A stretch of DNA of 64,000 bases from assembly GCA_011800155.1 (NCBI GenBank), contig CM022376.1, forward strand, positions 806,001 through 870,000, given 5' to 3'. Below the pieces are notes generated by a model, which saw only the letters and a list, made by a program, of their open reading frames with translations, ran no database searches and was not told the origin of the DNA. Of the stretch, positions 37,801-49,687 are shown piece after piece (position 1 is the first letter of the stretch; each line of letters begins with the position of its first letter). The position numbers were made by a program, and so were the translations under genes. Source of the stretch: Flammulina velutipes (Eukaryota; Basidiomycota; Agaricomycetes; Agaricales; Physalacriaceae).

Positions 37801-38267
37801 ATGCTCAAGGCTTTGAGATGGACTACGCGCTCTTTGCGGACTCATTCGTGGCCACGAACCCAGGAGGAACGACAAACGTTCGATGCCATAATGGACCGTA
37901 AAGTACCACTGTCTTTCCCTGCATCAGTCTCCAAGGCTGCTCTCAAACGCATACGTATGGAGGAAAGGCGCCAATTGAAAGCCGCGAAGACGTACGTGTT
38001 TTACTTCGTGTTGAAAACGTTTCAATTCACATCCTAGAAGTGGCCCTCCCGCGTCCGCAGATACGAGAGTGTCAACTCCACCTCCACCAGAGCAATCACA
38101 CGATGGGAACACCGTAGGTTCGCCTACTTCCATTCCCCAGCCGAGTTCTGTTCGACGGAAGAGGTGGATTCCGACACTTGCTCAGCTGCAAGTCCTGTTA
38201 GCAGTCTTCCAAGAGTCCCCTCTCCCCTCCTCATCCTTGCATCACGAACTTTCCGAGAGGCTGAAAG

Positions 38268-38488
38268 TGTAACGATTCCTACTTAACACGTTCCTTATGA
38301 CTCATATTTCCCCATCTCTATTTAGCATGTGATTATATTGATCATAGTTATATACCGCTCGATCTTTGCTCACGTAGATTAACTTTTTACCACCCACATC
38401 GCTTGTATCACTAAGTAGTCTTTAACAATAGTACCACCTGTTGTGCGAAGATCGAGTGAACTAAGCAAAGTGGGCCGTAACTCTTACA
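38268..38488 (+). repeat. 5' LTR (221 bp)
   Basis: Starts TGTAACGATTCC and ends AACTCTTACA. By eye it is identical to the 3' LTR at 48415-48635. A TTATATA word lies near 38347. Confidence 0.95.
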
Positions 38489-38865
38489 CTTTTTTTCGCA
38501 TCAGTATAAACATACTAGAACGCGAATAGACTACTTTTGAACGATACGATAAACGTATCATCGACCTCGCTGTAACACGAGGCAACCACGCTGTTTTAAT
38601 AAAACGCGTCATCTCGAGTCATCGAGAAAATCCTACGTCATTTTGATCGACGGTTCCGCTCAACATACCTCCGCGTGCAAACACGAGGCGAGGCGGACCG
38701 CCGCCCAACCCCAAGACATCACCGTATCAATACGCAAGGACTCGTAATAGATACGCCCACAATAACTCGTGGTTTACTGGTGTACTTAGCTTCGGGAACC
38801 CGGAATTAGGAACGCCTGAATTTACAAACCTATACACTCACCCGGCGCCACCAGTAGTACGAGCC
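38489..38865 (+). other. Retrotransposon leader between the 5' LTR and gag
   Basis: Untranslated leader. Directly after the LTR comes CTTTTTTTCGCATC, with no TGG as expected for pairing with a tRNA 3' CCA end. Short inverted repeats occur (GATACG..CGTATC near 38543-38560). Confidence 0.6.
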
Positions 38866-41800
38866 ATGGATAGTCATCCGGAAATCAAAGTTCCGCAGCC
38901 GCATAGGCCTCAATCTGCTGCAGTAGTTAGCGACCTCGAAGCGAAGGTAGAACAACAAGAAGAACTACCAGAAGAGAAGGCAACTCCGATACCCCCGCGC
39001 TATAAGCGTTCAACATCTATTAGAGCGTTATCTCGCCAATCACATAATATCAATACTGAAGACCTGAAAAAGGAAATCGAAAGATTGCAGAATATCGTAG
39101 AAAAGCGAGAACAGAAGAAGCCGTACAACCCGTTTGCGGGGTCCATACTATCAGCTAGCCCGGACAGACCAGTATCAAATCCATTTGCTACTCCAAAAGA
39201 CGAGAAACCGTGGACCAAGCCGAAGAGTGAAGCTCACAGCGTTAAAATGCCGCCGCCGGCACCAGGAGACAAACCAGGTGCCAATGACGCATGGTTAAGG
39301 TACATGAGTGATCAGCAGATCAAAGGAATGGTAAACACGGCGTACGCCAAAAAGAATCATGGCCCTCACACGGCAGAGGAAATACAGTTCATGATGAACG
39401 AACAACGGAAGTTCCGTGCCGTTGCTCATCAAGAATTGATCGCTCAACATGAGAAGGCGTTGCGGGAATTAGCAACGCAACATATTCATACTAATGGAAA
39501 AACGTACACGGTGATTCCACCATTAGCTATCAATCGTTATTTAGCAAGCAATATACAACGCGATGGCAGGATAAGGGAGGAACCAAAACACGTACTAAAC
39601 TCTATGTTGCCATTTGATCAGGAAGCAGGAGATTTCAGCGCGAATCTCCAAACGGCTCATTATTTTGAGAATGAGGAATTCCATCGACACGAGAGTGAAA
39701 CTCAGTCGAACTACATCCGACGGATGAACACAAAACGCGCTATAGAAGAATGGACATCAGTCAATTCATCTAAGACATTCCCAACAACAGGACCATTCAG
39801 TAAGGAAATGTTGGACGGGACCAGACATGCCATATTTGTAATGGGAATGAAGGAAGAACTTCGACGACGTGACTTAATAGTGTACGGTTGGTCGAAAATC
39901 CCGGAACAACAAGTCGATATTACCATCGCAGGTCTGGTGACTCACCATGACTGCCCGGGATTATCTGTAATGATAAGTCGTTACGAAGAAAATCCAGAGG
40001 AATATGTTTGGGTAAGAAAGCAATTTCCTCCACCCAATGATGGCGAGCGTCCGCCGTCAAAACATGGGAAAGAGGATAAGTCGATAAAAGACTCTCCAAA
40101 ACCCTCACATATACCAGGCGATCCCGATGACCCAGGTGACGATGATGGATCGGATAAAGGAGAAAAACCTCCTCACAAACCAGATGGAAAGAAGCCACCG
40201 CCACGTCAAACGCCTGGCAACGGGGGCGGTGGAGGAGATGACGGAAGCAGCGGTGGTAACGGAAGAGGCGCTAGTGATCCGGATCGACGACGGAAACGAT
40301 CGCCCAGATCAAAGGGAGCACAACCCCGTCCAGGTCAATTCCAGAGCGCGCGATTTCAATCGCAAGGCCCCAACGCACACTCGTCAGTTGAGGAATTCAA
40401 CTATAACCCACGTACCCGCTCTGACACGGAAGTAATGCTTCAAATCTTTAGTCGATACGAACGTATCATAAAGAAACACTTACTTTCTACACGAACAGGT
40501 CTGGACCCGAACGTTCAGAAAGCAACCATGCAAGGGTTGCATAAACCATCCAAGTATGACGGAACATCTGACATCGTTAAATTCGACGAATGGATTTTGT
40601 CTGTAGTATTATGGCTAAAAGCGGCGAATATATGCGGACCAGCATACTACATGGACGAAAACGGTGTTGAAGACGTCTCAAGTGTAGACGTTCAACGTAC
40701 CACTGCGTTAGGAACATTCCTGGATGGAGACGCGCGCGCGTGGTATCACGAGTCAGTTGAGAATGTTCAATGGAACCTTTTTGACGAAGATAATGAGCCC
40801 GAACAGCCTACCTTTTCACAAGTAATATCAAGTCTATATCGAAGGTTCATTCATGAATCATCATTATACGATCTAATCAAGAAGTTTGATCGTGTGGCGT
40901 ACCGTGTCGATGGAGGTATCCGTCAACTATTCGCAGATTTAACACGTTGGACCAGCATGATGCCATGTCCACCCGACGTCTATCGCTTCAAGCATAAATT
41001 AATGCTAGCAATCCCATCAGCAATTCGGAGCAAATTGAATCAAGACGGACTTACAGCAGAATCCGCATCCGTCAATGACATCATCCAACGTGCGCTGATA
41101 ATTGAGAAAGGAATACGCGCCGAACGCATATACGAACGGCAAGCTAAAGAAAGCAATCAGAACGTAAGATTTTCTAGCGAAGCTCGTCAAGCACCTGCAA
41201 ACAACACGGCAACACGCCGCTTCAAAAAGGTACAAGGCGAACGCCACAGTACCAGGCCGGACACAAGCCGTGAAAAGGACCGCTTGAACACAATGCAAGA
41301 TGGGAAACCAAAATTTACCCCAAGACCAGCCTATCGATCGGCCACTCCACCTCGCACTGGCGCCCGAAAGAGCAGATGTTGGGGATGCGGTAATGAAGAT
41401 CATTTCTCGAGCAATCCCAAATGTCCGAGATATGGGAAGCAACCACTTTATCCCAACGGGGAAAAACTATCTCGAATCAATGAGGAGGTCTCCGTTGACC
41501 AGAACACTGAGAAACCAGTAGATTGGGAATCTGCCGTCACCGCACAATCTAAAGAAGAGGACACGGGTGAAGAAGACCCGTGGGGAGGTAGTCAGTATGA
41601 GTCAGAAGACGAAAATGAAGCGCTAATGGCTCGTATGAACGAGACCGACCCATTCCCAGTGGTTGACGAAGACGAGTCGACGGATCGGGAAGACGAACCT
41701 TATGATGAACCCTTCGAAGACTCAGGAAATATCGCAGAACATGACGAATACACCATGGATTTTACTGAATACATGGGAGCAATAACTGAGGAGAAGGATA

Positions 41801-42477
41801 TCCAAACTTCGAGAACATATTATAGACCAAATATGGCAGAAATACCGAAAAAGCACGTACCTAAAGTACGTGCACGGCCACGACGAACTGCAGCGCAAAA
41901 TCGTTGTCTGCCGGCATACATCATTCTAAATGGATTGCCGGCGTTCACACTATTTGATAGTGGTAGTACGTCTGACGCGATAAGTCCTGATTTTGCGCGC
42001 ATTGCTAAGATTGATACGTTCCAATTAGCAAACCCAATACCATTGCAATTGGGAACGAAAGGCAGCCGTTCTAAGATAACTTTTGGCGCCGAAACCTCAT
42101 TCTTTTACGGGAATGAAAGAATCAAAGTAGAAGGAAACGACTACTTTGATATAACCAATATTGATAGGTACGATCTTATCATAGGTACAGTATTCATGAG
42201 AAAACACAAAATAGCGCTCGATTTCGAGCACGATACAATCAGAATACGAGGGGTCGCCGCTCCAACTCTCTCGGAGGGGGAGGAAGCCACAGAAATGGCT
42301 AGACGATACGCGAAACGCGTAACTACCGTGGGAAAGTCAAACGACGAAAGTGACATTGAGATTAAATCACGTCCCAATAAAGCCCCCAACGCTCAGCTAT
42401 CTGCGACGGTATCATCAGGAGCACGTCTCGCGGCAATGGCTACGGATATATCCGGTCATAATCTACCTACACAATGA
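38866..42477 (+). CDS. Retrotransposon Gag-protease polyprotein
   Basis: 1203 codons ending in TGA at 42475-42477. The first 550 residues or so are an unusual hydrophilic extension with a coiled-coil-prone part (TEDLKKEIERLQNIVEKREQ) and a Gly/Pro/Asp/Lys-rich linker (about residues 385-500). The capsid-like part (about 560-760) includes LGTFLDGDARAWYHESVE and SSLYRRFIHESSLYDLIKKF. A zinc knuckle CWGCGNEDHFSSNPKC follows near residue 838, with spacing CX2CX4HX6C, two residues longer than the classical CX2CX4HX4C. An acidic linker leads to an aspartic protease near residue 1028 (FTLFDSGSTSDAI) with the DSG active site. The pol ORF follows in the same frame after the stop. Confidence 0.9.
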   Translation: MDSHPEIKVPQPHRPQSAAVVSDLEAKVEQQEELPEEKATPIPPRYKRSTSIRALSRQSHNINTEDLKKEIERLQNIVEKREQKKPYNPFAGSILSASPDRPVSNPFATPKDEKPWTKPKSEAHSVKMPPPAPGDKPGANDAWLRYMSDQQIKGMVNTAYAKKNHGPHTAEEIQFMMNEQRKFRAVAHQELIAQHEKALRELATQHIHTNGKTYTVIPPLAINRYLASNIQRDGRIREEPKHVLNSMLPFDQEAGDFSANLQTAHYFENEEFHRHESETQSNYIRRMNTKRAIEEWTSVNSSKTFPTTGPFSKEMLDGTRHAIFVMGMKEELRRRDLIVYGWSKIPEQQVDITIAGLVTHHDCPGLSVMISRYEENPEEYVWVRKQFPPPNDGERPPSKHGKEDKSIKDSPKPSHIPGDPDDPGDDDGSDKGEKPPHKPDGKKPPPRQTPGNGGGGGDDGSSGGNGRGASDPDRRRKRSPRSKGAQPRPGQFQSARFQSQGPNAHSSVEEFNYNPRTRSDTEVMLQIFSRYERIIKKHLLSTRTGLDPNVQKATMQGLHKPSKYDGTSDIVKFDEWILSVVLWLKAANICGPAYYMDENGVEDVSSVDVQRTTALGTFLDGDARAWYHESVENVQWNLFDEDNEPEQPTFSQVISSLYRRFIHESSLYDLIKKFDRVAYRVDGGIRQLFADLTRWTSMMPCPPDVYRFKHKLMLAIPSAIRSKLNQDGLTAESASVNDIIQRALIIEKGIRAERIYERQAKESNQNVRFSSEARQAPANNTATRRFKKVQGERHSTRPDTSREKDRLNTMQDGKPKFTPRPAYRSATPPRTGARKSRCWGCGNEDHFSSNPKCPRYGKQPLYPNGEKLSRINEEVSVDQNTEKPVDWESAVTAQSKEEDTGEEDPWGGSQYESEDENEALMARMNETDPFPVVDEDESTDREDEPYDEPFEDSGNIAEHDEYTMDFTEYMGAITEEKDIQTSRTYYRPNMAEIPKKHVPKVRARPRRTAAQNRCLPAYIILNGLPAFTLFDSGSTSDAISPDFARIAKIDTFQLANPIPLQLGTKGSRSKITFGAETSFFYGNERIKVEGNDYFDITNIDRYDLIIGTVFMRKHKIALDFEHDTIRIRGVAAPTLSEGEEATEMARRYAKRVTTVGKSNDESDIEIKSRPNKAPNAQLSATVSSGARLAAMATDISGHNLPTQ

Positions 42478-42527
42478 CTAGATGGTCCCGAGCACAACAC
42501 CCCGCGAAAGGATCGTGCTTCGGTACC
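42475..42527 (+). promoter_or_regulatory. Candidate stop-codon readthrough signal (UGA-CUAG plus stem-loop)
   Basis: The gag stop is CAA-TGA-CTA-G. Six bases after it a stem can form between 42484-42495 (GGTCCCGAGCAC) and 42515-42527 (GTGCTTCGGTACC): 11 Watson-Crick pairs, one mismatch and one bulged base, with a loop of 19 nt. UGA followed by CUA and a nearby stem-loop is the layout of known type II readthrough sites in RNA viruses and some cellular genes. Gag and pol are in the same frame, as this mechanism requires. Confidence 0.65.
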
Positions 42528-45500
42528 ATGGAAAAATAACAAGAAAACACATATTGAAGATATTGAAGACGAAGAGGAGCCTCACAGTACGCGCCTAAAT
42601 CGTCAGCTACCAGTGCTATTAGCACCAGATGATTACTTTACTAAGGAAGAGTTAGATGAATTAGTGAAAGATGCGCATAAACTAGACCTATGCAAAGAAG
42701 AGAACCGTATCGCGGTAAACGAGCTCAATGACCTCGTAATGGAATACACAGCAGCATTCCAAGAACGAAAGGAAGCGATCGAGATCGAAACCGGTCCGAG
42801 CTCCGCATACGCCACGCTGCCAATGGAAACCATCAATGAACTTAAGGAAACATTAATGGCTACTACTGAGCAGTTCATATCTTTAGAAAATATCAATAAA
42901 GATCAATATTCGGAAGCTGACATTCCAAAGCTACGGACTAAATGGCTAGACTACTGCTCCGAAATCTTGCAAGGTACCCAAGAAGGGTTGCCCCCGCTAC
43001 GAGAAATTAACCACAAAATACCATTGATAGATGAATCAAAACGATACAACTACTATATGCCTAGATGTCCCGACTCTATGCGGGAACAGCTGATTGATCG
43101 TATAGGGACATACACCAAAGCCAAGTGGTGGGAACCATGTACATCGGACCAAGCGGCACCAATGCTTTGTGTACCAAAGAAGGATAACACCTTGCGCTGC
43201 ACCATTGATTGTCGTAAAAGAAACGAAAACACCATTAAGGACGTTACTCCATTCCCGGATCAAGATACTATCAGGTACGATGTGGCGCGCGCCAAATATA
43301 GATCTAAGATCGATCTATCGAACGCGTATGAGCAAGTACGCAATGTTACAGAAGACGTATGGAAAACCGCATTTGCTACCGTATTCGGAACGTTCGTTAG
43401 CAACGTAATGCAACAAGGAGACTGTAACGCGCCATCAACATTCCAACGTCTAATGACCGTCATATTCCAAGAGTGCCTGGGTCGATTCGTTCACGTATAT
43501 CTTGATGACATTTTTGTATTTAGTGATACGATAGACGATCATGAACGACACCTAAAGATAGTATTTGATAAACTTAAAGCAAATCAATTATACCTCAAAG
43601 CGTCTAAAGTACAATTGTATGCTGAGAAAATTGACTGCCTGGGACACATTATAGATAATGCTGGAGTCCACGCCGACATGGACAAACTAGCAAATATACG
43701 GGAATGGCGTGTACCTCGCAATTACAATGACATTCAGAAATTCTTAGGTGTGGTCAACTATGTGGCACACTATCTACCTGACGTTACCGCCTACACTACA
43801 CCACTTTCAGAAATCAATAAGAATGGTCAGCCGTTCTTTTGGAGACCAATCCACGACGCATGCTTCCAGTCTATCAAAGATCTGGCGTGTCGAACCCCAA
43901 TATTGCGTCCGATCGACGCCCGACTTGATGAACCAATTTGGGTAATATGTGACGCATCCATTACGGGAATAGGCGCCATGTACGGCCAAGGCCCAACATG
44001 GCAATCATGCCGTCCTGCCGGCTTCATGTCTAAAAAGTTTACAGACACTCAAAGAAACTACCGTGTATTTGAAACAGAAACATTGGCAATCCTAGAAGCA
44101 CTCCTCAAATGGGAGGATAAACTAGTAGGATATCGTATCCATGTGGTTACGGACCACAAAGCCTTAGAATTCTTCAAGACACAACGAAGACTATCCGCTC
44201 GACAGATGCGTTGGATGGAATACCTAGCGCGTTTTAATTGTGATATTACTTACATCAAAGGCATACACAATAAGGTAGCAGACGCACTATCGCGCTACTA
44301 TGAATCTGATACCCCTGAGGATAGATATGATATCGCTGAATACGCGAACGCCGATGTCCGATTAGATAGTGACGGAGAAGACCTTCCAATTGGGCGTCTG
44401 GATGAGTATGAGCGTATGCTTGTTAGACGCGAATCATCTCGATTACGAGAAATGAAGGAACGAAAAGAAGAACGCGACCTCGAAGCCACAGAGATGGAGC
44501 AAGCACGAGCCGAAAATAGTACAACGAACCCTGACACACCACCATACACAGCTCCCGAACCCACAGTGTTGGATGCAGTAGCAAGAGGTGACGACTTGGT
44601 TCAAATGCTAGAATCCACGCAAAGTGATTTCCAAGATCGCGTCAAGGAATACTACGGGAATGACCCACTACTGTCCAAAGTTTTGGAAAAACCTGAAGAC
44701 CATCCACGCTTCGAAGTCACAAGTGACGGATTGATATGGACTAATAATGTAGAAGGAGAAAAAGTACTATGTATACCCAAGAGTCCCAAGGGAAAATCAT
44801 CACTACGAGGTCTAGTACTCGAACAAGGCCACCTCACGGTAGGACACTTCGGACCCCAGAAAACGTCCTCATACATCCGGAGATGGTTTTGGTGGCCGAA
44901 GGTACACGGAATGGTACATGAATTCTGTAAAACGTGCCAAAAGTGCCATGAAGCAAAAGGGTCATACCAAGCACCATCCGGAAAACTTCATACACTACCG
45001 ATCCCAACGCGACCGTGGCAGTCCGTTTCGATGGATTTCATAGGACCGTTTCCAGAAGTAAAGAAACGAAATTACCTATGGGTAATAGTGTGCAGGTTAA
45101 CCTCACAAGTACATCTCATCCCTATACACACGACGAACACGGCAGCAGATTTATCACGGATTTATCTGCAAGAGATTGTCAGATTACACGGACTACCGGA
45201 GTCAATAGTATCTGACCGTGATTCTAAGTTCACCGCCGCATGGTGGCGGGAGCTGCATCGACTACTCGGAGTTAAGCTCCTTATGTCAACTTCCTACCAT
45301 CCTCAGACCGACGGACTTACTGAAAGGACGAACCGGAGCGTGGCGCAAATATTTCGATCAAGCATCCGTCCCGATCAAGGGGATTGGCTCGGCAAATGCC
45401 CGATCGTGGAATTTGCGATCAACTCAAGTATTAGTGAATCTACAGGATACGCACCATTCGAACTCACATACGGATACATACCGGCAATGATGAGAGAAGT

Positions 45501-46110
45501 ACGTTATTCTACTAAAGTTCCTCCAGGAGTACGTGCGTTTGCATCTCAAGCTATGAATAACCTTTATGATGCACATGATGCTATAATAGCAGCACGTGTT
45601 TTCCAAACACATTATTCCAACAAAAAACGAAGGAATGAAATGAACATACCTGAAGGATCAAAAGTTTACTTGTCCACAAAGAACCTTAGTGTCCCTAAGT
45701 CTCGAACGAGAAAACTGGCACCGAAATTCATTGGACCCTATAAGGTACTCGAAGCGCATCCCGAGACATCAGTTTACCGCCTCGAGTTGCCAAAGTCAAT
45801 GAAAGCCAAGAAAGACAAGTTCCACATCAGTCTTCTTAGGCCGTACCAAGAAAGTGACGAAATTCTATTTCCGGACCGTTCAAAACCAGAACCGTATGAT
45901 TTCGGTGCACCCGACGACGCTGAAGAAGTGATCGAAGAAATCATCGATCATGAGTGGCGATCAGGGAAGTTATTTCTGACAGTGCATTGGGCATTGGGTG
46001 ACAGAACACTAGAACCCATTAAAAAATGCAAAGGACTCAAGGCACTAGACGCGTACCTAGAACTTATGGGTACATCAGATCCTATGAGCCTCCCTAAAAC
46101 ACGACGGTGA
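42478..46110 (+). CDS. Retrotransposon Pol: reverse transcriptase, RNase H, integrase, chromodomain
   Basis: Continues the gag frame directly after the TGA. The first in-frame ATG is at 42739, 87 codons later, so readthrough is more likely than separate initiation. RT: LRCTIDCRKRNENT, SKIDLSNAYEQVR and the active site VYLDDIFVFSD (about 43495-43527). RNase H: WVICDASITGIGAMYGQG and VVTDHKALEFF. Integrase: zinc-binding part with GHLTVGHFG...CKTCQKC, then the catalytic Asp in VSMDFIGPFPE, the second Asp in SIVSDRDSKFTAAWW and the Glu in LTERTNRSV. A GPY/F-like module follows (KFIGPYKVLEA), then a chromodomain-like end (EEIIDHEWRSGKLFLTVHWA, DRTLEPIKKC) that may guide integration to chromatin. 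Confidence 0.93.
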   Translation, partial: LDGPEHNTPRKDRASVPWKNNKKTHIEDIEDEEEPHSTRLNRQLPVLLAPDDYFTKEELDELVKDAHKLDLCKEENRIAVNELNDLVMEYTAAFQERKEAIEIETGPSSAYATLPMETINELKETLMATTEQFISLENINKDQYSEADIPKLRTKWLDYCSEILQGTQEGLPPLREINHKIPLIDESKRYNYYMPRCPDSMREQLIDRIGTYTKAKWWEPCTSDQAAPMLCVPKKDNTLRCTIDCRKRNENTIKDVTPFPDQDTIRYDVARAKYRSKIDLSNAYEQVRNVTEDVWKTAFATVFGTFVSNVMQQGDCNAPSTFQRLMTVIFQECLGRFVHVYLDDIFVFSDTIDDHERHLKIVFDKLKANQLYLKASKVQLYAEKIDCLGHIIDNAGVHADMDKLANIREWRVPRNYNDIQKFLGVVNYVAHYLPDVTAYTTPLSEINKNGQPFFWRPIHDACFQSIKDLACRTPILRPIDARLDEPIWVICDASITGIGAMYGQGPTWQSCRPAGFMSKKFTDTQRNYRVFETETLAILEALLKWEDKLVGYRIHVVTDHKALEFFKTQRRLSARQMRWMEYLARFNCDITYIKGIHNKVADALSRYYESDTPEDRYDIAEYANADVRLDSDGEDLPIGRLDEYERMLVRRESSRLREMKERKEERDLEATEMEQARAENSTTNPDTPPYTAPEPTVLDAVARGDDLVQMLESTQSDFQDRVKEYYGNDPLLSKVLEKPEDHPRFEVTSDGLIWTNNVEGEKVLCIPKSPKGKSSLRGLVLEQGHLTVGHFGPQKTSSYIRRWFWWPKVHGMVHEFCKTCQKCHEAKGSYQAPSGKLHTLPIPTRPWQSVSMDFIGPFPEVKKRNYLWVIVCRLTSQVHLIPIHTTNTAADLSRIYLQEIVRLHGLPESIVSDRDSKFTAAWWRELHRLLGVKLLMSTSYHPQTDGLTERTNRSVAQIFRSSIRPDQGDWLGKCPIVEFAINSSISESTGYAPFELTYGYIPAMMREVRYSTKVPPGVRAFASQAMNNLYDAHDAIIAARVFQTHYSNKKRRNEMNIPEGSKVYLSTKNLSVPKSRTRKLAPKFIGPYKVLEAHPETSVYRLELPKSMKAKKDKFHISLLRPYQESDEILFPDRSKPEPYDFGAPDDAEEVIEEIIDHEWRSGKLFLTVHWALGDRTLEPIKKCKGLKALDAYLELMGTSDPMSLPKTRR

Positions 46111-46171
46111 CGCGAGGCGAATCCAAGCGTTGAGTACCATATGGGAAATATGATTTCCCCATTTAGGTATA

Positions 46172-48385
46172 ATGGTACGCCACGCCTCGAAGCAGCTCTT
46201 AACATGTATAAAAAGCGCTTATACAAGGCGTAAACCGTATCATACATCGCCTGAACTCAAATCTTCGACGCCTAAGCTTTATAACATGCATTACTACGGA
46301 TACCCCTACGGCTTCCCCATGCACGCGCTCCCAGGAATGATGCAGCAGCCAATGGCACAGCTAACGACGAGCAGCGCTGACGACCGCAATTACCACGTCA
46401 GCAACTCGCAAGAAAGCTACAAACCACCTTCTTTGGAGGGGGGGAACCCCATGACGTTCCAACATCATAGCAGTATGTTCGCTCCGCCGAGCACCCAATC
46501 CCAGACTAACAGGCGTACAGCAGCGCAGTTCCAACAGTTTCCCGGCTATATGCAAGCTCAAATGTACAACCCTGGCTTCACTAGTCAATACCCGGGATGG
46601 GGAGGTATGCACCCTGGAATGGCAATGCCCCCTCCAATGTTCCCGACGCACCAGCACTTCGTGCCGACGCAAACTCATCTCTCAGTCGATCAATTAGACG
46701 ACAGGCAAGTTAACATCACGCCGTCCAGCTTATTCCAAGCTGATGAAACATATAAATCCAGCGCGCATGACAACGCCGCCTCCCCCCAAGCCGTCCTCCA
46801 GGACGCACAACGGGAAGACATAGAAATGTCGGGATCCCCCGACTCAGTGGAGCTTATCATTGACAACTCGTCAATAGGTAAGAACCACCCTATGGACGTA
46901 GACCCCGAATCTTATGCATCCCATGTAGGCTTTTATAGCCAGGCCCAATCGAACCAGCGAGCAATTACTCGCAACTATGAGCCGGAACAAATAATCCAGC
47001 CTCGACCACGCGTCAAAACAGCACGCATCGCACCTATCATTGGACCAATTCGGGGCACTAGTCGATCTACTCGAGGACGTCCAACCGCTCCTTCTCAATG
47101 GAAACGTCCCCGAAAGGACACACCTCACCCCGTAGTGGGATTGCTGGAACCAGTGTCTATCCCCCTCGCTATGAAAGCCCAATCGTTCTTCGACCCCATG
47201 GTCCTCCCTCACCTTCCCGTCATTCTTGACGATACGTTCATACATGACGGACGAGCGCATGGCCGCTTCAACACCATATCAGACGTCGATAGTGTATTTA
47301 CCGACGCTCAGTCAACGGGAAATTTTACAGCATATCATGACTTCTCATTCGTACTAGTGGCGGCACAACACCTAAGCCACATACCTCCCTCTTCTGGCTT
47401 CGGCAGGGCAATTTCTGTCAGCGGGCGTAGGCACACCCCCTTGGCATTCAGGCGCGCTCTTCTTTTACAGAAACGCAACCCATTCCTGCTTGATTGGGCC
47501 AACCCTATACTTTCTGCGCCACACTCGGATGACGGCCTTTCGGGCAAGAACCTACCCCCGCTAAAACCCCTTCCATTTTCTACTTCCTCCACTCCACGAG
47601 GCGATCGTGCGGACTGGAAAACATTCATAGCTCACTGTATCACTTGTGGAACGGACCGAGCTTTACGCGGTACTAAACTAACTTTGGACCGCATCGACTA
47701 CCGCACCTTCCTCGGACTATTTATGGTCCGAAATACCTTTCCGTCATACGGTCGCGTCCATCATAAACCCGCCGTGGACCTGATACTCATCCTAGTGGCT
47801 ACTCTGATTGGCGCGCCCGAAATATACGGGGATCTCTTAGTCGCCGCTCGCCTGTCGGTAGCTCCTACTCTACAATACCAACTATTCCCCGAGGTGAATG
47901 TGACTAACGCGCGTCTGATTGACGTAGCCTCTCATATGGCCAACTGTGGCATCAACCTTCCTTTGATGCATTTTATTCGCCCATATGGACTTCATTTACT
48001 TCTTTGGTTCGTTGATCCCGTCAATGTTCCCTCATTCCATACCCGCGACATTGCCAAAAACGCGCTCACTCGGATTTCGATCGACTTCCTAGTACGGGGT
48101 CTCAATCCTAATTGGGATATCCGTGGCGCCCCCGACTCCCGACTTCCAGTTGGGTTCGCCAACATTCAGGAGGAGTTCCCTCACGATTGGGATCTGGTGA
48201 ATATGGCCGAGCATCGTCGCCGGAGGTCGTTAGGATACCCCATTTGTCTTGAGGAGGCTACTGTAAGTCCTGTGGATGGACCTACAGATCCTGTTGATGG
48301 ATCTATCCCGTCGCCTCCTCTTCCGACCCAATCCGACGATACCGACGCTAACATGGAAATTTCTCCGCCGATTGATTCCAATTAG
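46172..48385 (+). CDS. Retrotransposon ORF3, 737 codons, function unknown
   Basis: Lies between pol (61 bp after its stop) and the 3' LTR, same strand, different frame from pol. The first ATG is at 46172; a second at 46286 (MHYYGYPYGFPMHALPGMMQ) starts the characteristic sequence and may be the real start. Residues about 40-170 are rich in Met, Gln, Pro, Tyr and Gly, like prion-like domains. An acidic/Ser part follows, then a basic cluster with WKRPRKD (about residue 309), a possible nuclear signal. The last 350 residues look folded (HCITCGTDRALRGTKLTLDR, DYRTFLGLFMVRNTFPSYG, VDLILILVATLIGAPEIYGD, LMHFIRPYGLHLLLWFVDPV). There is no signal peptide or clear membrane anchor, so it does not look like an envelope. 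I do not recognise the family. Confidence 0.75.
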   Translation: MVRHASKQLLTCIKSAYTRRKPYHTSPELKSSTPKLYNMHYYGYPYGFPMHALPGMMQQPMAQLTTSSADDRNYHVSNSQESYKPPSLEGGNPMTFQHHSSMFAPPSTQSQTNRRTAAQFQQFPGYMQAQMYNPGFTSQYPGWGGMHPGMAMPPPMFPTHQHFVPTQTHLSVDQLDDRQVNITPSSLFQADETYKSSAHDNAASPQAVLQDAQREDIEMSGSPDSVELIIDNSSIGKNHPMDVDPESYASHVGFYSQAQSNQRAITRNYEPEQIIQPRPRVKTARIAPIIGPIRGTSRSTRGRPTAPSQWKRPRKDTPHPVVGLLEPVSIPLAMKAQSFFDPMVLPHLPVILDDTFIHDGRAHGRFNTISDVDSVFTDAQSTGNFTAYHDFSFVLVAAQHLSHIPPSSGFGRAISVSGRRHTPLAFRRALLLQKRNPFLLDWANPILSAPHSDDGLSGKNLPPLKPLPFSTSSTPRGDRADWKTFIAHCITCGTDRALRGTKLTLDRIDYRTFLGLFMVRNTFPSYGRVHHKPAVDLILILVATLIGAPEIYGDLLVAARLSVAPTLQYQLFPEVNVTNARLIDVASHMANCGINLPLMHFIRPYGLHLLLWFVDPVNVPSFHTRDIAKNALTRISIDFLVRGLNPNWDIRGAPDSRLPVGFANIQEEFPHDWDLVNMAEHRRRRSLGYPICLEEATVSPVDGPTDPVDGSIPSPPLPTQSDDTDANMEISPPIDSN

Positions 48386-48403
48386 ATCTGTGGCGCAGAT
48401 CTC

Positions 48404-48414
48404 TCCGGGGAGGG
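48404..48414 (+). other. Putative polypurine tract
   Basis: The bases just before the 3' LTR include GGGGAGGG (48407-48414), the expected position and composition for plus-strand priming. Confidence 0.6.
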
Positions 48415-48635
48415 TGTAACGATTCCTACTTAACACGTTCCTTATGACTCATATTTCCCCATCTCTATTTAGCATGTGATTATATTGATCATAGTTATAT
48501 ACCGCTCGATCTTTGCTCACGTAGATTAACTTTTTACCACCCACATCGCTTGTATCACTAAGTAGTCTTTAACAATAGTACCACCTGTTGTGCGAAGATC
48601 GAGTGAACTAAGCAAAGTGGGCCGTAACTCTTACA
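48415..48635 (+). repeat. 3' LTR (221 bp)
   Basis: Same 221-bp sequence as the 5' LTR, followed by the target duplication GAAAG at 48636-48640. Confidence 0.95.
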
Positions 48636-49687
48636 GAAAGTGCCTCTCAAAAGTATCGTCGGTTGGTTCAATCGGTAAGCGCAGTCTGAGCCTATATATT
48701 TCATCGTCTTATCAAATCAACAGTCGGACAAGAGCAGGTCCTAGTAGATGGACACGGATTAGCCAACGGCCGTCCTACGAATCTGAGGTCTTCCAGGAAC
48801 GCCCGAAGGATTCTTTGTTGAGCTTCACAACCCCGGGGACGCGCATTCATGATCGGCCTCCTATAAGGACATTAGACCTCTCTCAAGTCACTGCCTCGGA
48901 CTTTGTCGACCTGTCAGGAATTCAGCTCCCTTACGTGTCAGTTATTGTCGGTCCGAAGACGTTGACTGCGAAGCCGCTCTACGACAAGGTGAAAGGGCGT
49001 CGTCGTTTGCCCTTTCCTGCAGGAACGACAGGTTTCTTCTACCTGCACGCCCCGGTGGACCGGCCTGCGTATGAACGAAGTATTCGGTTCAAGCTCGTTC
49101 CAAGCATCGACTGCCTTGACGACCTGCACAGTCGTAGTGATCTGTTGAGGCGCGATGGTCTTCCCTGGTCGATTACGTTGTGTGCAGGAGACCGTATCCT
49201 ACAGGCATTCATCTCGAAAGCAGTGTACGATGGATTCATTCCGAAGGATATGCATAAACGGTTCTTGTCGCTGGTCAACAATTCGCCACATTTTGGTCGG
49301 CAGACTATTGTCATTCATAACATGTCGGAGGTCTTCGCGGTGCCTTTGGACAGAGATAGGATAACGATTTGGGTTATCACGGACGAGACGAAGATCCAAA
49401 TCACCGTGAAAACGAAATTTCTCGAAGGATTCAAGAAAAAGAAGGATGGTTCTGACGCAGGTAACGGTTCCTATCTTATTCACATCTCGAGTTTTCTCAT
49501 TGTGACCGTAGCATGCGCTCTTGTATCAATAAAGCCCCACCCTGTCTACGACGTCCCCGCATTTGTGGTCGAGAGCGTACAAGAATCGAAAGGCAGCCCT
49601 CAGGTGAAGGTGCCCACCCCGAAATATACAGTTCTAAGTTCTGTTTTGTTGGAGAGAATTGAGTGGGTGTTGTTTCTCTCAACATGA

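Follow-up and report, generated by a model that had tools for sequence, protein, structure and literature searches.

Comparison with related sequences indicates that the main claim of a first-pass annotation of this DNA is very probably right: the TGA codon at position 42475, which closes the gag-protease frame of a Ty3/Gypsy retrotransposon, would be a programmed leaky stop. Strong support for readthrough of this UGA, placed between gag-protease and pol, comes from TGA-CTA at the junction of 8 of 10 distinct elements and TGA-CGG in one more, from the zero frame kept across the stop in all nine elements that have it, and from coding constraint ahead of the first in-frame ATG in most of the pairs compared. 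We propose that the majority of ribosomes would stop at the TGA and release Gag-protease (Gag-PR), and that a minority would decode UGA-CUA via a near-cognate tRNA, with an amino acid inserted there, and continue to Gag-PR-RT-RH-IN. The core of the signal would be a hexamer maintained by selection, UGA-CUA or, in one relative, UGA-CGG, and a hairpin 3' of the hexamer in the window element may raise the level of readthrough. With the stop placed after it, the protease would be produced in the same amounts as Gag, and rationing would be restricted to reverse transcriptase (RT), RNase H and integrase. The element probably makes its reverse transcriptase only via passage past this weak UGA-CUA stop.

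The element and its junction

The window, i.e. the whole stretch of 64,000 nucleotides of Flammulina velutipes DNA analysed, contains a 10.4-kb Ty3/Gypsy element at 38268-48635, with LTRs identical over 221 bp and a 5-bp target duplication. Its features are listed in window positions.

38263..38267, no strand: 5' copy of the target-site duplication GAAAG, 5 bp
38268..38488, + strand: 5' LTR, TG...CA, 221 bp
38866..42477, + strand: ORF1, gag-protease, from the first ATG (stop-to-stop frame 38647-42477)
41377..41424, + strand: CX2CX4HX6C motif within Gag, presumably zinc-knuckle-like (sequence motif)
41908..42240, + strand: protease region, borders approximate (motif, likeness to relatives, weak Pfam RVP_2)
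42475..42477, + strand: TGA, proposed leaky stop codon, in frame between ORF1 and ORF2
42478..42480, + strand: CTA, context codon of the proposed readthrough signal (conservation among relatives)
42482..42529, + strand: possible RNA hairpin, 13 bp, one mismatch, one bulge (RNA fold)
42478..46110, + strand: ORF2, pol, in the frame of ORF1 (first in-frame ATG 42739)
43171..43653, + strand: reverse transcriptase (PF00078)
43927..44235, + strand: RNase H (PF17917)
44797..45303, + strand: integrase zinc-binding and core domains (PF17921, PF00665)
45655..45846, + strand: Tf2-1-like SH3 domain (PF24626)
46154..48385, + strand: ORF3, 743 aa stop-to-stop, no assigned function (ORF list)
48407..48414, + strand: purine tract GGGGAGGG preceding the 3' LTR (sequence)
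48415..48635, + strand: 3' LTR, identical to the 5' LTR, 221 bp
48636..48640, no strand: 3' copy of the target-site duplication GAAAG, 5 bp

The LTR ends TG..CA and the short target duplication are those of Ty3/Gypsy elements, as is the domain order PR-RT-RH-INT, in which the protease rests on a motif and a weak Pfam match. The active-site motif DSGS was found at 41956-41967, and Pfam RVP_2 matched residues 1088-1142 of ORF1 with an E of 0.0053, below the curated cut-off. The identical 221-bp LTRs together with the 5-bp GAAAG duplication suggest that the insertion is recent. The usual tRNA primer site is not evident 3' of the 5' LTR, because the sequence at 38489-38510 (CTTTTTTTCGCATC) does not start with TGG.

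A second copy of the element (L043) is located on contig C8 of the 38.1-Mb genome and shows 0 differences within 100 nt either side of the stop. Among the first 60 differences listed between the two copies over some 9 kb, 25 are packed in 283 bp of gag (39684-39966), and this patch looks as if it was derived from another element through recombination; the ungapped count is 476 in all, and the rest of these differences probably follow a register shift. A long ORF downstream of pol was present in all elements compared. For ORF3 of the window copy there was no match in Pfam or NCBIfam and no protein-database homologue at E 0.001, and the ORF evolves very fast, being only about 23% identical between the window element and L033 over 350 residues, vs 68% for pol.

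The gag-protease frame of the window element terminates with CAA-TGA-CTA-G, the TGA at 42475-42477, and the RT-RNase H-integrase frame runs on in frame, with 87 codons lacking ATG until codon 88 (42739), the first in-frame ATG of ORF2. This arrangement had been described in the first-pass annotation and was confirmed. Within the window, 20 of 2390 TGA triplets on both strands are followed by CTA, and the occurrence of the TGA-CTA hexamer at the junction is far beyond chance. Gammaretroviral type III sites use UAG as the stop; the junction here reads TGA-CTAG.

Conservation of the stop in this genome

Searching the genome itself with ORF2 gave at least 60 matches. Junctions were read for all matches that extended to them with at least about 51% identity, which comprised 12 loci, the window element and L033-L043. 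L014 and L016, of similar likeness, carry just the 3' half of pol and no junction, and were left out, as were a gag-only match on contig C1 and the more distant ORF2 matches. TGA-CTA was found in 10 of the 12 loci (window, L033, L035, L036, L037, L038, L040, L041, L042 and L043), TGA-CGG in one (L034) and no stop at the site in one (L039). After merging of near-copies (L043 into the window element, L040 into L038) there remained 10 distinct elements with pol 47-88% identical; eight have TGA-CTA, one TGA-CGG and one no stop at the junction. The UGA of type II readthrough sites is thus present in 9/10, and the 3'-adjacent codon is CTA (8) or CGG (1) in all nine, the zero frame being kept across the stop in 9/9. 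The codon before the TGA is variable (CAA, CAG, GAA, GAT, AAT, AAC), with CAA in the window element and GAA in three of nine (L034, L035, L036). A DSG motif lies in frame upstream of the TGA in seven of nine elements, the protease being broken in L033 and L037; in both, the broken region is next to diverged tandem repeats with about 155-bp spacing. L040 has 1.6-kb repeats, 98% identical, 8.4 kb apart.

As a control we followed the codon use elsewhere in pol. Among 204 invariant columns other than Met and Trp, the same codon was used by all eight CTA elements in just three. None of the 21 invariant leucines in the ORF2 alignment of these elements had a single codon (0/21), the commonest codon being shared by at most 4/8, and CTA makes up 13-31% of the leucine codons in these pol genes. 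The terminators of pol in the eight elements with untruncated pol were TGA (3), TAA (3) and TAG (2), and CT came next in 0/8; this count excludes L040, L041 and L042, whose pol frames are cut short and end TAA-CTAGTT, TAG-AGCTTC and TAA-GGTAGG respectively, so that the CT next to the stop in L040 belongs to an excluded row. Since codons and terminators of pol vary, the identity of the stop and of the next codon is held at the junction and not elsewhere. These comparisons indicate that the conservation of TGA-CTA is due to selection and not leftover ancestry.

In a tree of RT sequences whose outgroup was six sequences from a more distant lineage, this genome's TGA elements form two groups (window/L033/L034, and L035/L036 with L037/L038/L041/L042), among which database proteins from other fungi are interspersed. 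L039 is nested inside the clade as sister to L035/L036, some deep nodes of the tree being weakly supported. As these sisters bear the stop, its absence from L039 looks like a loss; L039 has another in-frame stop inside the protease and may be decaying. The first-pass annotation had held that copies without the stop at this site would speak against readthrough: one such copy exists, L039, and the stop is kept in nine of the 10 distinct elements. A single-ORF element on its way to decay, with a stop that arose by random nonsense mutation, is already contradicted as an explanation and has a negligible probability: one open frame of 3082-3289 aa does hold the protease and pol matches in four elements from a more distant Ty3 lineage of the same genome, but the stop lies at the same domain border in 9/10 distinct elements, which belong to two deep groups, and in several of them the frames on either side are long and open.

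Hairpins, separate initiation and splicing

In the minimum-energy RNA fold of the window element, 42482-42486 pairs with 42525-42529, and 42488-42495 with 42515-42518 and 42520-42523, giving 13 pairs with one mismatch and one bulge, beginning 4 nt past the TGA. The first-pass annotation had drawn a stem of 11 pairs starting 6 nt after the TGA; it exists in the fold, but the folded stem is longer and nearer to the stop. Over 42440-42560 the fold reached -25 kcal/mol (z -1.71), with 11 of 200 shuffles equally good, and the stem is moderately beyond chance.

It could be asked whether the hairpin is essential to the signal, as in a full type II cassette. The 60 nt after TGA-CTA in the window element had a z of -2.66, lower than in any of the 55 windows taken from its own pol gene as controls (rank p 0.018; 0.105 at 90 nt), and L037 has a strong hairpin directly 3' of the hexamer (60-nt rank p 0.016). 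The hairpins of L033 and L035 lie further downstream (60-nt p 0.13 and 0.074), and at this length the folding of L034, L036, L038, L041 and L042 was ordinary (p 0.63-0.98); none of the nine elements reached a p of 0.05 at 90 nt. Against shuffles alone, the nine sites combined gave a Stouffer z of -2.4 at 60 nt and -4.2 at 90 nt; in most of these genes, though, the control windows lie below zero too. Against the control windows, Fisher p was 0.059 at 60 nt and 0.056 at 90 nt for the nine elements, and 0.018 and 0.052 without the close relatives L036 and L041. Across 203 nt around the stop the second copy has the same sequence as the window element, and in the other relatives the stem region does not align. 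L035 and L036 both have CGTCC...GGACG arms near the stop, with a strongly different intervening loop; these arms could reflect RNA or protein constraint. Position and strength of the hairpins thus vary between elements, five of nine being ordinary at 60 nt, and the proposal that the signal includes a conserved stem-loop was not supported. We consider an essential hairpin unlikely: UGA-CUA is the conserved signal, and the hairpin is possibly a local enhancer at most.

Another possibility is that pol is translated separately, with ribosomes reinitiating past the stop or starting there internally or at a non-AUG codon. Such a start could lie at the first in-frame ATG, which the nine elements have 11-90 codons past the stop (the window element at codon 88, L033 at 90, the remaining seven at 11-52); the position of this ATG differs between elements, though, and an ATG in another frame comes earlier in 8/9. 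Coding constraint moreover precedes the first in-frame ATG in most pairs. Between the window element and L033, the 84 pre-ATG codons gave a pN/pS of 0.47, vs 1.00 +- 0.11 with codons unpaired, and an alignment score of 156 in frame 0, vs 22.5 and 63 in the other frames; frame 0 was far above the other frames in all three pairs tried. The pre-ATG pN/pS was 0.58 for window/L034, 0.61 for L033/L034, 0.47 for L037/L038 and 0.32 for L037/L041, and constraint was weak in two of the seven pairs, L038/L042 (0.82) and L035/L036 (0.81, just 10 codons), all values being rough because synonymous sites are near saturation in several pairs. The in-frame extension, as in type II readthrough, is accordingly under selection in five of seven pairs (0.32-0.61), the other two being at about 0.8. 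Separate translation of pol would require neither frame 0 nor CTA, and we regard it as highly improbable.

An intron over the stop, spliced from part of the transcripts, would give a fused Gag-PR-Pol mRNA. Splicing is considered in passages of the report on Tca2 (PMC2194720), and the databases contain gene models of related fungal elements in which the protease region is joined to pol (P0035, P0089, P0136, P0143), presumably through annotated introns. When any GT was allowed as donor, a frame-keeping GT..YAG pair was present in 7/9 junctions, in 3/9 with a branch-site-like motif. Candidates with a branch site were overall no commoner than at random positions. With a GTRNGH donor, a YAG acceptor, a length of 40-150 nt and the frame kept, candidates were found in 0/9 junctions, vs a mean of 0.23-0.37 at 200 random pol positions in each of three elements; an intron removing the stop, which the first-pass annotation had named as a refuting condition, did not appear within these limits. 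A scan with wider limits gave one GTRNGH candidate, in L041; it checked 300 nt upstream for stops, a stretch in which some elements are broken, and could miss candidates. Splicing would also leave the conservation of TGA-CTA unexplained, and we find it hardly credible as the route to pol.

Comparison with known systems and other fungi

The statement in the first-pass annotation that most Ty3/Gypsy elements use a frameshift or a single ORF is right in general, but elements of the stop type have already been published from fission yeast (PMC10085805). According to passages of that work, Tosmo1-3, Tcry1 and Tj1 carry a conserved GAA-TGA-CT (CTA or CTG) between Gag and Pol, from which readthrough was inferred, and excerpts of another report state that removal of the Tj1 stop virtually abolished transposition (PMC4600332). 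The elements studied here share with them the in-frame conserved TGA followed by CTA. They differ in the position of the stop, which in these accounts lies between Gag and protease and here between protease and RT, and in the preceding codon, always GAA there and GAA in 3/9 here. The readthrough mechanism is thus already known for fungal Ty3 elements; what differs here is the position of the stop after the protease.

Ustilago maydis is a basidiomycete. In this fungus UGA-CUA suffices for readthrough, and such readthrough is described for fungal metabolic genes, among them U. maydis tpi1 (PMC4207609); the hexamer is the same, and the product there is peroxisomal enzyme isoforms, here a polyprotein. 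Type II sites are defined, in excerpts of PMC11166343, by UGA followed by 'generally CGG or CUA', many with a stem-loop about 6-12 nt on. The present junctions resemble such viral sites in UGA with CUA or CGG and in a possible stem-loop, and differ from them in the carrier, an LTR retrotransposon, in a stem-loop that is not conserved, and in the spacer (4 nt in the window element vs about 6-12). Tca2 of Candida albicans is likewise a retrotransposon with an in-frame UGA before pol; unlike the window element it has an 8-nt spacer and a potential pseudoknot, and passages on it state that its flanks gave no readthrough support in S. cerevisiae (PMC2194720). A review of fungal LTR elements contains neither the word 'readthrough' nor 'frameshift' (PMC3248453).

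With regard to dosage, a review links the mode of retroviral protease production with the activity of the enzyme and describes the avian protease as equimolar with Gag, in the sections drawn on here (PMC3185560). By analogy with the alpharetrovirus MAV, the protease output proposed here would equal the Gag level. The route into pol would be a different one, as stop readthrough is proposed here. Alpharetroviruses frameshift into pol.

A search for DNA of relatives outside this genome, covering viral contigs with protein and alignment and genome contigs with alignment, gave no loci. Fungi named in the database matches shown for pol and protease include Mycena, Trametes, Phanerochaete, Phlebia, Marasmius and Lentinula, which are Agaricomycetes. 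The protein search with the protease region returned 45 proteins, within a length window in which very long single-ORF proteins cannot appear and with some entries being gene models; 26/45 end 65-120 residues past the start of the protease landmark, 1/45 ends inside the protease, 1/45 runs past the junction and 17/45 had no landmark match and were unscored, at least three of these (P0143, P0151, P0167) ending in pol-like sequence. Among the best 120 of 2267 pol matches, subject to the same length bias, one (P0089) had a strict protease motif and two (P0035, P0105) were protease-like on reading. Because of the gene models and the length window, the protein ends support but do not prove that a stop after the protease is widespread in related fungal elements; the stop codon itself is not visible in proteins. 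In the open literature, judged by titles and abstract openings and with most subscription papers outside it, we found no description of a layout with UGA after the protease in Agaricomycetes.

We consider it somewhat probable that a large Agaricomycete branch of Ty3/Gypsy elements has kept the layout of protease followed by UGA-CUA or UGA-CGG through saturating divergence. In this branch only RT and integrase would be rationed through readthrough; the hexamer would be the ancestral switch, and the hairpins would come and go as element-specific tuners. Gene models of fungi may split or mis-splice such elements, which should be kept in mind as a warning. Within this one genome, diverged sites with UGA-CUA or UGA-CGG, with and without hairpins, occur together with a stopless relative, and this natural series lets one ask what the minimum is for a readthrough signal and what determines the doses of Gag, protease and RT.
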